A stretch of 64,000 nucleotides of DNA from Ralstonia pickettii (GTDB lineage Bacteria > Pseudomonadota > Gammaproteobacteria > Burkholderiales > Burkholderiaceae). The position numbers and the translations under genes are program-made. The stretch covers positions 1 to 64,000 of the forward strand of contig NZ_MCGB01000074.1 in the NCBI RefSeq assembly GCF_001699815.1, written 5' to 3'. Shown piece by piece: positions 296-32,341 of the stretch. The notes under the pieces are model-generated. The model made no database searches and was not told the origin of the DNA. It saw only the letters and a list, made by a program, of their open reading frames with translations. Each line of letters begins with the position of its first letter. Positions within the stretch are counted from its first letter, which is position 1.

Positions 296-303
296 GCTCC
301 ATG

Positions 304-333
304 AAAAAAGCCACCGAAGTTCGGTGGCTTTTT
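304..333 (-). terminator. Intrinsic terminator of lgt
   Basis: An 11-bp perfect inverted repeat (307-317 with 321-331, core GCCACCGA/TCGGTGGC, 3-nt loop) is flanked by A and T runs, giving a U-tract in either direction. It lies about 20 bp past the lgt stop and only about 10 bp from the IS end. Confidence 0.85.
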
Positions 334-351
334 CTTTGCGCGGTTGCTGCG

Positions 352-1254
352 TCAGGCGTGCGCCTGGTTTTTTTCACCGTTGCCTGCACGACGATAGGAC
401 CAGACCAGCATGGCGATGCCGATCAGGATCATTGGCAGCGACAGCCACTGGCCCATCGACAGGTTCGCCGCGAGCAGGCCCAGGAAGTTGTCCGGCTCAC
501 GCGCGAATTCCGCGGCGAAGCGGAACACGCCGTAGCCAAGCAGGAATGCGCCGGACACCGCGCCCATCGGCCGCGGCTTGCGCGCATACAGCCACAGCAG
601 GATGAAGAACAGCACGCCCTCGCCGAGGAACTGGTAGATCTGCGAGGGGTGGCGCGGCAGCATGTGGTACTGGTCAAAAACGGCCTGCAGGCCGCTGGTG
701 ACGGCCTCTTGCGCATGCGAAAGCAACCATTCACGGTCTTCGCCCTGTGCCTGCGGGAACATCATCGACCACGGCAGGTTGGGCGACGACACACGGCCCC
801 ACAGCTCGCCGTTGATGAAGTTGCCAAGGCGCCCCGCTGCGAGACCGCACGGGACCATCGGCGCGATGAAATCAGTCACCTGCATCCACGATCGACCGCG
901 CATGCGCGCATACAGCATCATCGCCACGACCACACCGAGGAAGCCGCCATGGAAGGCCATGCCGCCTTCCCAGACCTTGAAGATGTCGAGCGGGTGGGCG
1001 AAATACCAGTCGGGCTTGTAGAACAGCACGTATCCCAGGCGCCCGCCGAGAATCACACCGAGCACGCCGTAGAAGAGCATGTCGTCAAGGTCGCGGCCGG
1101 TCCAGCCTTCGGCCGCGATGTGCGGCTGGCGCGTGCGCAGTCGGCCGAACCACAGGAACATGATGAACGCCGCCAGATACATCAGGCCGTACCAGCGGAT
1201 GGCGAGCGGCCCCAGATGCAGGGCGACGGGGTCGAATTGCGGATGGATGAGCAT
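352..1254 (-). CDS. lgt: Phosphatidylglycerol--prolipoprotein diacylglyceryl transferase
   Basis: This is the inner-membrane enzyme that moves diacylglycerol from phosphatidylglycerol to the lipobox cysteine of prolipoproteins, the first step of lipoprotein maturation. The product is 300 aa, normal for the family, with multiple hydrophobic segments. The Lgt signature GRLGNFIN is at 141-148 and the conserved HGG motif includes His102. The ATG at 1252-1254 was chosen because it gives the canonical [11 protein letters not shown] start. The frame stays open further upstream, but that stretch has no Lgt similarity and runs into the LysR gene. LspA, which acts next in the pathway, is also in this window at 58 kb. 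Confidence 0.97.
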
Positions 1255-29832: not shown

Positions 29833-30882
29833 ATGGCTTACCAGATCAACGTGTTGCCCAGCGGCCGCCAGTTCCAGGCCGAAGACGGCGAGACCATCCT
29901 TGCAGCAGCGCTGCGCCAGGGTATCGGCCTGCCGTACGGCTGCAAGAACGGCGCGTGCGGCTCGTGCAAGGGCAACGTGCGCGAAGGTTCCATCGTCCAG
30001 GGAACGCACTCCCCCAACGCGCTCTCCGCCCAGGAGGCCACCGAAGGCCGGGCGCTGTTCTGCTGCGCCACACCCGCCACTGACGTCACCATTGAAGTGC
30101 GTGAGGTGCATGGCGCCGGCGATGTCCCCATCAAGAAGATTCCGTGCCGCGTCGCGTCACTGGAAAAGGCCGCGCCGGACGTCACCATCGTCAAGCTGCA
30201 ACTGCCTGCCACCGAGCGTATGCAATTTCTGGCCGGGCAGTACGTGGAATTCCTCCTGCGCGACGGCAAGCGCCGCAGCTACTCGATCGCCAACCCGCCG
30301 CACGACGACGGCCCGATCGAGCTGCACATCCGCCACATGCCGGGCGGCGTATTTACCGATTACGTGTTCGGCGCCAAGGAAGGCGCTCCGGCCATGAAGG
30401 AGCGCGACATCCTGCGCTTCGAAGGCCCGCTGGGCAGCTTCTTCCTACGTGAAGAGTCCGACAAGCCGATCATCCTGCTGGCCTCGGGCACCGGCTTCGC
30501 GCCCATCAAGGCGATCATCGAGCATGCCCAGTTCATCGGCAGCACGCGCCCCATGACGCTGTACTGGGGCGGGCGCCGCCCGCAAGACCTGTACATGCAC
30601 GCCAAGGCCGAAGAATGGGCGCGCACGCTGCCGAACTTCACCTACGTGCCGGTCGTCTCCAACGCCCTGCCCGAAGACGCCTGGACGGGCCGCACCGGCT
30701 TCGTCCACCAAGCCGTGATGGCAGACCACCCCGATCTGTCTGGCCACGAGGTCTACGCCTGCGGCGCGCCGGTAGTGATCAATTCGGCCCGCGCGGATTT
30801 CGCCGCCCAGTGCGGGATGCACCCGGATGCGTTCTTCGCCGATTCCTTCACCTCAGAGGCGGACCTCCACCCGGCCGGCTGA
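29833..30882 (+). CDS. ascD: Ferredoxin-type NAD(P)H reductase, AscD/CDP-glucoseen reductase-like
   Basis: A 349-aa electron-transfer protein: an N-terminal plant-type [2Fe-2S] domain with CKNGACGSC (near residues 37-45) and a distal Cys in FCCA, then an FAD domain (RRSYSIANPP) and an NAD domain (LASGTGFAPIKAI). It matches the CDP-6-deoxy-delta-3,4-glucoseen reductase (AscD/E3) family often annotated in Ralstonia, but no deoxysugar genes are near. A general oxygenase or desaturase reductase role is equally possible. ATG 29833 gives the canonical MAYQINVLPSG start. Confidence 0.88.
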   Translation: MAYQINVLPSGRQFQAEDGETILAAALRQGIGLPYGCKNGACGSCKGNVREGSIVQGTHSPNALSAQEATEGRALFCCATPATDVTIEVREVHGAGDVPIKKIPCRVASLEKAAPDVTIVKLQLPATERMQFLAGQYVEFLLRDGKRRSYSIANPPHDDGPIELHIRHMPGGVFTDYVFGAKEGAPAMKERDILRFEGPLGSFFLREESDKPIILLASGTGFAPIKAIIEHAQFIGSTRPMTLYWGGRRPQDLYMHAKAEEWARTLPNFTYVPVVSNALPEDAWTGRTGFVHQAVMADHPDLSGHEVYACGAPVVINSARADFAAQCGMHPDAFFADSFTSEADLHPAG

Positions 30883-30917
30883 CGTTGCACAAATCCAAAG
30901 AAGGCCCAAATTTCGTT

Positions 30918-30946
30918 TTGACTTGACTTGGCATCCGTCTTATTCT
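30918..30946 (+). promoter_or_regulatory. Promoter of the mini-ORF/aminotransferase leader
   Basis: TTGACT (30918-30923) and TATTCT (30941-30946) are 17 bp apart, a good sigma-70 match. Transcription would start around 30953-30955, at or just before the mini-ORF ATG. The mini-ORF may therefore be translated from a leaderless RNA. Confidence 0.6.
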
Positions 30947-30954
30947 TGCGCCTT

Positions 30955-31026
30955 ATGAACCAAGCCCTGCACCTCCGACGCCGCCGTACGTTGCTCCCTC
31001 CGGGAAGCCACGCGGCTGTCTGCTGA
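30955..31026 (+). CDS. Arg-rich mini-ORF, candidate attenuator leader peptide
   Basis: A 23-codon frame from ATG 30955 to TGA 31026. The peptide has His6, Leu7, then four consecutive Arg (residues 8-11, codons CGA CGC CGC CGT), Pro-Pro at 15-16 and a terminal Cys23. It lies right behind a promoter and 33 bp before an intrinsic terminator, with an ArgD-like aminotransferase gene downstream. That is the layout of a transcription-attenuation leader for arginine supply. No ribosome site precedes it; translation would be leaderless. Function is inferred and the peptide is not a family I recognise. Confidence 0.5.
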
Positions 31027-31059
31027 TTGCATATCGGGTTCACAGGATTCGACGATCAC

Positions 31060-31096
31060 AAGGCCACGGGGCGACCCCCGTGGCCTTTGTCTTTTT
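31060..31096 (+). terminator. Attenuator-like intrinsic terminator ahead of the aminotransferase
   Basis: AAGGCCACGGGG (31060-31071) and CCCCGTGGCCTT (31076-31087) form a 12-bp perfect stem with a 4-nt loop, followed by TGTCTTTTT. It lies after the mini-ORF and 58 bp before the aminotransferase ATG. A partial copy of the left arm (AAGCCACG, 31005-31012) inside the mini-ORF could compete for the right arm. It could also simply end the upstream ascD transcript. Confidence 0.8.
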
Positions 31097-31153
31097 CCAA
31101 CTCGCGTTTTTCCGCTTTTTCATCTTCCTGCCGCCTTTTTCTGGAGCTTTGCC

Positions 31154-32341
31154 ATGGCGTTTGCTGACTACCCCGTCCAGTCCCTGATGTACATCACCAA
31201 CCGGCCCGAGATCGTCTTCACCGAAGGCAAGGGCTCGTGGCTGACGGACCACAACGGCAAGCGCTACCTGGACTTCGTGCAAGGCTGGGCTGTCAACTGC
31301 CTCGGCCACTCCAACGACGGCATGATCGAAGCGCTGAACGCGCAGGCCCGGAAGCTGATCAACCCGAGCCCGGCGTTCTACAACGAGCCGATGGCCAAGC
31401 TGGCCGGCCTGCTGACGGCGCACAGCTGTTTCGACAAGGTGTTCTTCGCCAACAGCGGCGCCGAAGCCAACGAAGGCGCCATCAAGCTCGCCCGCAAGTG
31501 GGGCAAGAAGCATAAGAACGGCGCCTTCCAGATCATCACGTTCGACCACAGCTTCCACGGCCGCACGCTCGCCACCATGAGCGCGTCGGGCAAGGCCGGC
31601 TGGGACACCATCTTCGCGCCGCAGGTGCCGGGCTTCCCGAAAGCCATCCTGAACGACATTGCCTCGGTGGAAGCGCTCATCACCGACGAGACTGTCGGCG
31701 TGATGCTTGAGCCGGTGCAAGGCGAAGGCGGCGTGCTGCCGGCCACGCCGGAATTCATGCAGCAACTGCGTGCGCTGACCAAGAAGCACAAGATCCTGTT
31801 GATCGTTGATGAAGTGCAGGCCGGTTGCGGCCGCTGCGGGACCCTCTTCGCCTATCAGCTCTCGAACATCGAGCCGGACATCATGACGCTGGGCAAGGGC
31901 ATCGGCGGTGGTGTACCGCTGTCGGCCCTGCTGTGCACGGATGAAGTCGCCAGCTTTGAAGCCGGCGACCAGGGCGGGACCTACAACGGCAACCCGCTCA
32001 TGACGGCCGTCGGCTGCTCGGTGATCGAGCAACTCCTGGCCCCGGGCTTCCTGACTGGCGTGGAAGAACGCGGCGCCTATCTGCGCACGCAACTGCTCAA
32101 GCTGAGCGAAGAGTTCGGCCTGGCCGGCGAGCGCGGTAACGGCCTGCTGCGCGCGCTGCTGCTCGGCAAGGACATCGGCGGCCAACTGGTCGAAGCTGCA
32201 CGCGAGATGAACCCGACGGGCTTGCTGCTGAACGCCCCGCGTCCGAACATCCTCCGATTCATGCCCGCGCTGAACGTGACGACCGAAGAAATCGACACGA
32301 TGATCGGCATGCTGCGCACGCTGCTGAAGGCGCACGCCTAA
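31154..32341 (+). CDS. argD: Acetylornithine/class-III aminotransferase (ArgD-like)
   Basis: A PLP enzyme of the acetylornithine aminotransferase group, 395 aa. It shows the substrate/PLP motifs [46 protein letters not shown] and the PLP lysine in [14 protein letters not shown] (around residue 256). It probably converts N-acetylglutamate semialdehyde to N-acetylornithine in arginine synthesis, though related omega-aminotransferases are hard to separate. The ATG has a GGAG at a workable distance. The leader upstream suggests arginine-linked control. Confidence 0.85.

Follow-up and report, generated by a model that had tools for sequence, protein, structure and literature searches.

The argD gene of Ralstonia pickettii is very probably controlled by a ribosome-mediated arginine attenuator, in which translation of a leaderless leader peptide senses charged tRNA-Arg. 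The element lies within a 64,000-nucleotide stretch of contig NZ_MCGB01000074.1 (hereafter "the window", to which all coordinates refer). A preliminary description of this DNA had proposed such an attenuator, and our analysis supports it: the layout, the reading frame and the Arg run are conserved in the sequences of related loci, and the predicted antiterminator partner of the terminator covaries.

Transcription would start from a sigma-70 promoter at 30918-30946 on the forward strand, composed of a -35 box TTGACT (30918-30923), a 17-nt spacer and a -10 box TATTCT (30941-30946). The promoter had been called a good one, and it is indeed the sole promoter-like site in 30400-31400, a region for which shuffled sequences yield a mean of 0.1. 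Eight nucleotides separate the -10 box from the ATG at 30955. Judging from this spacing, the transcript most likely starts at the ATG or no more than about 2 nt before it; the start predicted earlier, exactly at the ATG, is thus retained, with the addition that a position up to about 2 nt upstream also fits the 8-nt gap. The ATG opens a mini-ORF of 23 codons followed by TGA (30955-31026, forward strand). The predicted leader peptide carries the motif LRRRR and ends in Cys. Its four consecutive Arg codons, CGA CGC CGC CGT (30976-30987, forward strand), are the putative regulatory codons and the proposed segment 1 of the switch. ORF, Arg run and terminal Cys are as previously described, except that the Arg codons are not all different synonyms: three synonyms are present, CGC occurring twice.

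Downstream of the mini-ORF, a stem of 12 perfect pairs (left arm 31060-31071, right arm 31076-31087, forward strand) encloses the loop CGAC and is followed on its 3’ side by TGTCTTTTTC, which extends to 31097. The left arm, recognised by the stem scan and by conservation, would be segment 3, shared with the proposed antiterminator; the right arm, recognised in the same way and also by paired changes, would be segment 4. The 12-bp perfect intrinsic terminator reported earlier is therefore present at 31060-31087, although its T run is interrupted, the stem ending in CCTT and TGTCTTTTT coming next. It is the only terminator-like site in 30400-31400, where shuffles yield a mean of 1.1 by chance, so the case for it rests on conservation and not on the scan. 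An alignment of 30 leaders shows changes on both sides that preserve pairing at 3 of the 10 stem pairs, and the 146-nt leader is more stably folded than its shuffles (z -3.14). The gene that follows, argD (31154-32341, forward strand), encodes an acetylornithine transaminase of the PRK03715 type and is the proposed regulated gene. Its product scores 783.4 bits against the NCBIfam equivalog NF002985 “acetylornithine transaminase” (cut-off 568), confirming the ArgD-like aminotransferase recognised at the outset, and 394.3 against the general model TIGR00707 (argD), slightly below the cut-off of 410. GGAG at 31143-31146 is its likely ribosome-binding site. The window element thus presents repeated end-product codons, an intrinsic terminator between the leader ORF and the structural gene, and a downstream gene that makes the amino acid proposed to be sensed.

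Within its own genome, the leader appears as a single copy. Leader model R1 gave one strong match, of 111.6 bits, at the window locus, and no second strong copy among the 150 of 4501 first-look candidates that were scored; the 18 other matches reached at most 24.8 bits. The structure in R1 is that of the terminator only, and these weak matches are probably mostly generic terminators. One of them, of 24 bits, lies in the window itself (300-432, minus strand) and resembles an ordinary GCCACCG terminator; by eye, the ORF beside it looks like part of a transposase.

Conservation was assessed in 138 regions upstream of argD orthologues, drawn from the genus, family and order of the window’s genome. 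An automatic search for an in-frame Arg-rich mini-ORF together with a terminator selected 105 regions, and L027, L112, L120 and L131 were removed as spurious on viewing, leaving the element in 101 of the 138. Counted by hand, these loci span 23 genera and 11 of the 14 sampled families (f1, f3, f5, f8, f11, f15, f20, f21, f24, f35 and f39); the automatic search did not find the element in the sampled families f4, f19 and f30. Among the 37 regions without an element by this search, which can miss variants, L137 has a weak R1 match in the right place, and in L023, L027 and L030 argD comes almost directly after an upstream reductase reading frame. Leader peptides from the set include MNTLTIRRRRSTLPFRAPRG, MNRIQSELRRRRSPLP, MNRFLSALRRRRSPLRPDAAGSSRTRA, MNMIRTLLRRRSPLPLPGKPCA and MNTKFNDALRRRITTSGMRSCGRRQP. 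The peptide end AAVC is confined to the 16 Ralstonia loci; among the other 85 loci with the element, a Cys-ended peptide occurs only in L026, with a different end, RRRRLC. A cysteine sensor, which the terminal Cys might have indicated, was dropped because the AAVC end is exclusive to Ralstonia.

The survey was extended to the best 80 of the 587 relatives in one protein scan. These named loci belong mostly to Burkholderia, Paraburkholderia, Caballeronia and Trinickia, and some to Ralstonia soli and Robbsia. Such a mini-ORF was found in 76 of them and not in L204, L211, L215 or L218. All 218 loci were then scanned for the motif CG[A/C]CGNCGN and a leaderless ATG, with any frame allowed. Both were present in 146 loci, and in every one of these 146 the two are in frame; the remaining 72 failed the strict motif/ATG pattern. 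The 146 loci represent 90 distinct sequences, with ATG-to-run spacings of 18, 21, 24, 30 or 39 nt. Because the 146 sequences are related, they do not count as so many separate events, and the five different spacings are a better guide. The promoter is similarly placed in these relatives: the distance from the -10 box to the ATG is 6-9 nt in the 146 loci, most commonly 7 nt (101 of 146), and the -10 box reads TATTCT, TATCCT, TATGCT or TATATT in 84 of the 90 distinct sequences. The preliminary description had taken a lack of conservation of the Arg run or of the ORF frame as grounds for giving up the attenuator; both are present well beyond the genus. Some loci carry variant leaders. In family f5 (L096, L133, L135 and L136), the leader ORFs are longer, at 36-39 codons, and carry a spread Arg motif (ARARSGRGALS, ARARAWAGRGAS) with no compact run. 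Two “Candidatus Burkholderia” genomes, which we take to be those of plant symbionts, have a decayed-looking leader, with LRRCR in L214 and none found in L204.

Whether the mini-ORF evolves as a coding sequence was judged from the 54 distinct sequences whose run falls at codon 9. Mean entropies over codons 2-8 are 1.06, 0.95 and 1.08 by codon position, i.e. without any third-position excess of variation, and the Arg run itself varies little. Sequence pairs with a single-base difference comprise 18 synonymous and 14 non-synonymous cases. Together, the pair counts and the entropy pattern lend weak support to coding.

We propose that the element operates as follows. Transcription from the ATG would allow a ribosome to load on the leaderless 5’ end and to translate the mini-ORF in the wake of RNA polymerase. 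A shortage of Arg-tRNA would stall this ribosome on CGA CGC CGC CGT, where it would cover segment 1; segment 2 (31007-31017) would then be available for pairing with the left arm of the terminator (31062-31072). With this 2:3 pairing in place, the terminator would not form and argD would be transcribed. When Arg-tRNA is ample, the ribosome would reach the stop codon and cover segment 2, the 12-bp terminator would form, and termination would release a leader RNA of about 140 nt. Translation of the mini-ORF, ribosome stalling and read-through on arginine shortage are thus the proposed steps, and the leader peptide itself would have no role.

Segment 2, the proposed 5’ strand of the antiterminator (31007-31017, forward strand; GCC A CG C GGCT), was delineated from a computed fold and from covariation. 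In the fold of L001, the window’s own locus, with the ribosome covering the Arg run, segment 2 is used with two mismatches, 31007-31009 pairing with 31070-31072, 31011-31012 with 31067-31068 and 31014-31017 with 31062-31065. A partial copy of the terminator’s left arm had been noticed inside the mini-ORF; it does lie there, at about 31004-31014, and overlaps the stretch that we interpret as the antiterminator strand, 31007-31017. Across the loci, the best left-arm partner begins at codons 13-24, near or just after the ORF end, in 68 of 72 distinct peptides, the exceptions being L001 (codon 8), L026 (codon 10), L004 (codon 11) and L088 (codon 28). Examples of the pairing are GTGCGGCC with GGCCGCAC in L091, CTCGTGcGCC with GGCCACGAG in L094, and GCCGcTGGCTT with AAGCCACGGC in L020.

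Upstream shuffles fail to separate many GC-rich loci from chance, and we therefore compared same-genome with swapped segment-2/left-arm partners, using one locus for each of 22 arm types. Same-genome duplexes have a mean of -16.95 kcal/mol, against -14.02 (sd 0.54) for swapped ones, and 0 of 20,000 permutations was as good; for a sham region taken from upstream of the ATG, p was 0.92. When only the arm is considered, the overall outcome does not change but is uneven among loci: the rank of the own arm runs from 1 to 20 of 22, 9 of the 22 arm types being in the top four and 9 ranking 11th or worse. These sequence comparisons show that the predicted 2:3 pairing covaries across lineages. By the same calculations the Ralstonia copy of the antiterminator is weak, one of the weaker copies in the set. 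Segment 2 of L001 ranks 7th of 22 for its own arm in the arm-alone test, and the best duplex partner of the L001 left arm is the Arg-run region, not segment 2, with 90 of 100 shuffles as good. The position of the antiterminator bulge differs between Ralstonia and Burkholderia. A protector pairing between the Arg run and segment 2 (1:2) is present in the minimum-energy fold of the window leader and shows no covariation (p = 0.27).

The effect of ribosome position was modelled in 31 hand-chosen loci of the 101, with the ribosome edge assumed to lie 12 nt past the first base of the A-site codon. When the ribosome is placed at the Arg run in a transcript that ends before segment 4, the left arm is predicted to be paired upstream with a mean probability of 0.85, above 0.5 in 31 of 31 loci. 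With the ribosome at the stop codon, the mean is 0.38, and 12 of the 31 chosen loci exceed 0.5. Shuffled spacers give a mean of 0.59; each of the 31 loci lies above the mean of its own shuffles, and 7 of 60 spacer shuffles do as well as or better than the median locus. In three g3 loci that were folded, placing the ribosome at the stop leaves the upstream pairing of the left arm in place (0.96-0.98). For full-length Ralstonia leaders (L001, L013 and L016) with a stalled ribosome, the computed equilibrium is entirely in the terminator form (1.00), so antitermination in Ralstonia would have to be kinetic. By computation, then, a mutually exclusive antiterminator is found for the set of lineages, and it is weak for Ralstonia alone.

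Ribosome-mediated attenuators control amino-acid biosynthesis operons, as in the trp, his, leu, thr and phe leaders. The window element has in common with these a run of end-product codons in the leader ORF, an intrinsic terminator, a competing antiterminator and a biosynthetic gene downstream; it is unlike them in responding to arginine, as proposed here, and in its leaderless ORF. The preliminary description could match this layout to no named class, which overstates its novelty: a leaderless leader ORF is already known from S. meliloti, where, in the account given in PMC7298713, the rnTrpL RNA starts at the ATG of trpL and was found as a small RNA. That system concerns Trp and not Arg, belongs to the alphaproteobacteria and is likened to ours by layout, not by sequence. 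In the Salmonella speF leader (orf34/DUF2618), as PMC6386406 describes it, consecutive Arg codons sense arginine via ribosome pausing; this leader differs from the window element in its Rho-dependent termination, in a Shine-Dalgarno-initiated ORF that begins at nucleotide 32, and in its control of ornithine decarboxylase, partly through RNase G. By inspection, the window element does not belong with speF/orf34, since argD lies downstream and its LRRRR peptide is without the core HIRRT*HIMM. In the window, all Rfam leader families stay below their gathering scores, and a riboswitch or T-box was rejected because no Rfam family attains its score in the leader. In the literature that our search covered, outside which most subscription papers fall, no arginine attenuator of the leaderless, intrinsic-terminator kind was found.

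The regulatory context was also surveyed. A search for ArgR (PF01316) gave no match in 100 genomes sampled from the order and a match in 9 of 14 controls; PMC5343134 describes ArgR as conserved in gammaproteobacteria and absent from the other classes studied there. In the window’s genome, no Arg-run mini-ORF lies upstream of argG or argF, no terminator-like site precedes argG, and argF is preceded on its own strand by a single weak terminator-like site of 5 bp. Separately, in other families of the order, we observed a second class of leaderless mini-ORF with a terminator, before a gene that, from its protein sequence, we take to encode an EamA/DMT-type transporter. It was seen in 7 of 18 viewed loci (L236, L239, L240, L244, L245, L246 and L248), the match beginning at position 1501 of the oriented locus. 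Their leader peptides are rich in Arg and contain V/I-R motifs; in all seven loci, the later part of the ORF includes a segment able to pair with the left arm of the terminator (-13.9 to -23.2 kcal/mol, a range computed with no shuffle control).

The argD leader attenuator probably also explains an orphan small RNA of Burkholderia, BcKCsr7, of which Ghosh 2017 is reportedly the source. The window leader scores 27.4 bits (E 0.00072, full model 1-157) against the corresponding Rfam family, RF02884 (“Burkholderia sRNA 7”), below the gathering score of 59 bits, and is thus not itself a member. Four of 11 other argD loci do reach the family, namely L069 (164.7 bits), L021 (163.7), L020 (143) and L022 (92.6); L096 scores 23.9 bits, and the rest of the 11 give no match up to E 0.5. 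The window leader holds the same position as the four passing loci, upstream of an argD orthologue. In B. cenocepacia J2315, this RNA is listed as expressed under the equivalent names RIT34, nc5U30, Bc_KC_sr7 and IG1_2967543, and is placed on the plus strand of chromosome 1 at 2,967,641-2,967,787, a length of 147 nt, in the data given by PMC10987360. If the label IG1_2967543 denotes the first base of the intergenic region, as we assume, Bc_KC_sr7 starts 98 nt into that region. The distance from the upstream stop codon to the mini-ORF ATG is 82-127 nt in 14 Burkholderia genomes (J2315 not among them) and 98-101 nt in 8 of the 14. Under the label assumption, the published start thus fits the leaderless mini-ORF ATG, and a short transcript starting there is supported by the published Burkholderia mapping. 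The RF02884 match in L021 sets in 14 nt before the ATG, within the -10 box; this is at odds with a transcript start unless that end is approximate. PMC5688073 describes 82 “short 5’UTRs”, some of them from attenuation, and its main text contains no occurrence of argD or arginine. In the sources covered, BcKCsr7 is annotated only as an sRNA, and our literature search, which took in few subscription papers, found no link of the leader or of BcKCsr7 to argD or arginine. The earlier suggestion of a small RNA arising from the terminated leader fits its Burkholderia homologue being Rfam BcKCsr7.

The terminated leader might instead act chiefly in trans as a small RNA, with argD lying downstream outside its control. 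In favour of this, Rfam has the Burkholderia homologue as an sRNA family, it appears in a list of sRNAs, and the product of the S. meliloti rnTrpL attenuator is able to act in trans (PMC7298713). We consider such a role improbable, because conservation falls on the in-frame ATG and Arg run and on the competing pairings; most of the spacer is unconserved among the 30 aligned leaders. Moreover, the name nc5U30 suggests that its finders classed the RNA as a 5’UTR transcript. A conserved ORF with its own promoter and terminator would equally suit a functional small protein, the terminator merely ending its mRNA. Yet little of the peptide is conserved except the Arg run, its length varies from 14 to 39 residues across loci and its end differs between genera, which makes a small protein a very remote prospect; the position before argD is no argument either way here, since the loci were chosen by argD. 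As for an ORF and a terminator having come together by accident in GC-rich intergenic DNA, shuffles of the 1-kb stretch do produce terminator-like sites (the mean of 1.1 given above), but conservation, frame and covariation across 23 genera leave chance scarcely credible.

A further alternative accepts an attenuator and disputes its signal, which might be a general slowdown of translation, or the charging or modification of tRNA-Arg(ICG), and not arginine supply as such. This tRNA reads CGC, CGA and CGT, and CGA poorly. The three codons make up 415 of 446 Arg codons in the 85 distinct mini-ORFs, and CGA is the first codon of the run (30976-30978 and homologues) in 81 of the 85, yet it accounts for 7 of 197 Arg codons in the nine window ORFs taken as genes. 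On the other hand, CGC and CGT already constitute 84% of the Arg codons in those nine ORFs, and the Arg run may be constrained as RNA, so that its codon bias could reflect either single-tRNA sensing or RNA pairing; in Salmonella orf34, furthermore, rare and frequent Arg codons give the same regulation in the account of PMC6386406. We therefore give a signal other than arginine little credence, and retain an attenuator of argD that responds to arginine through charged tRNA-Arg.

A broader interpretation, which we regard as doubtful and offer as speculation, is that the argD element forms one branch of a leaderless attenuator family in the order. Its released RNA would combine the roles of cis switch, tiny leaderless mRNA and trans-acting RNA, its near-invariant and rare CGA would read a single tRNA-Arg isoacceptor, and a second branch, with V/I-R peptides, would precede the EamA-type transporter gene. 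More directly, the arginine attenuator proposed here would provide arginine feedback for a large order in whose 100 sampled genomes ArgR has no match. An Rfam “sRNA” family would thereby acquire a role in cis, and leader peptides translated from leaderless starts would gain a widely conserved example; the near-invariant CGA as first regulatory codon may offer a handle on codon-specific sensing.
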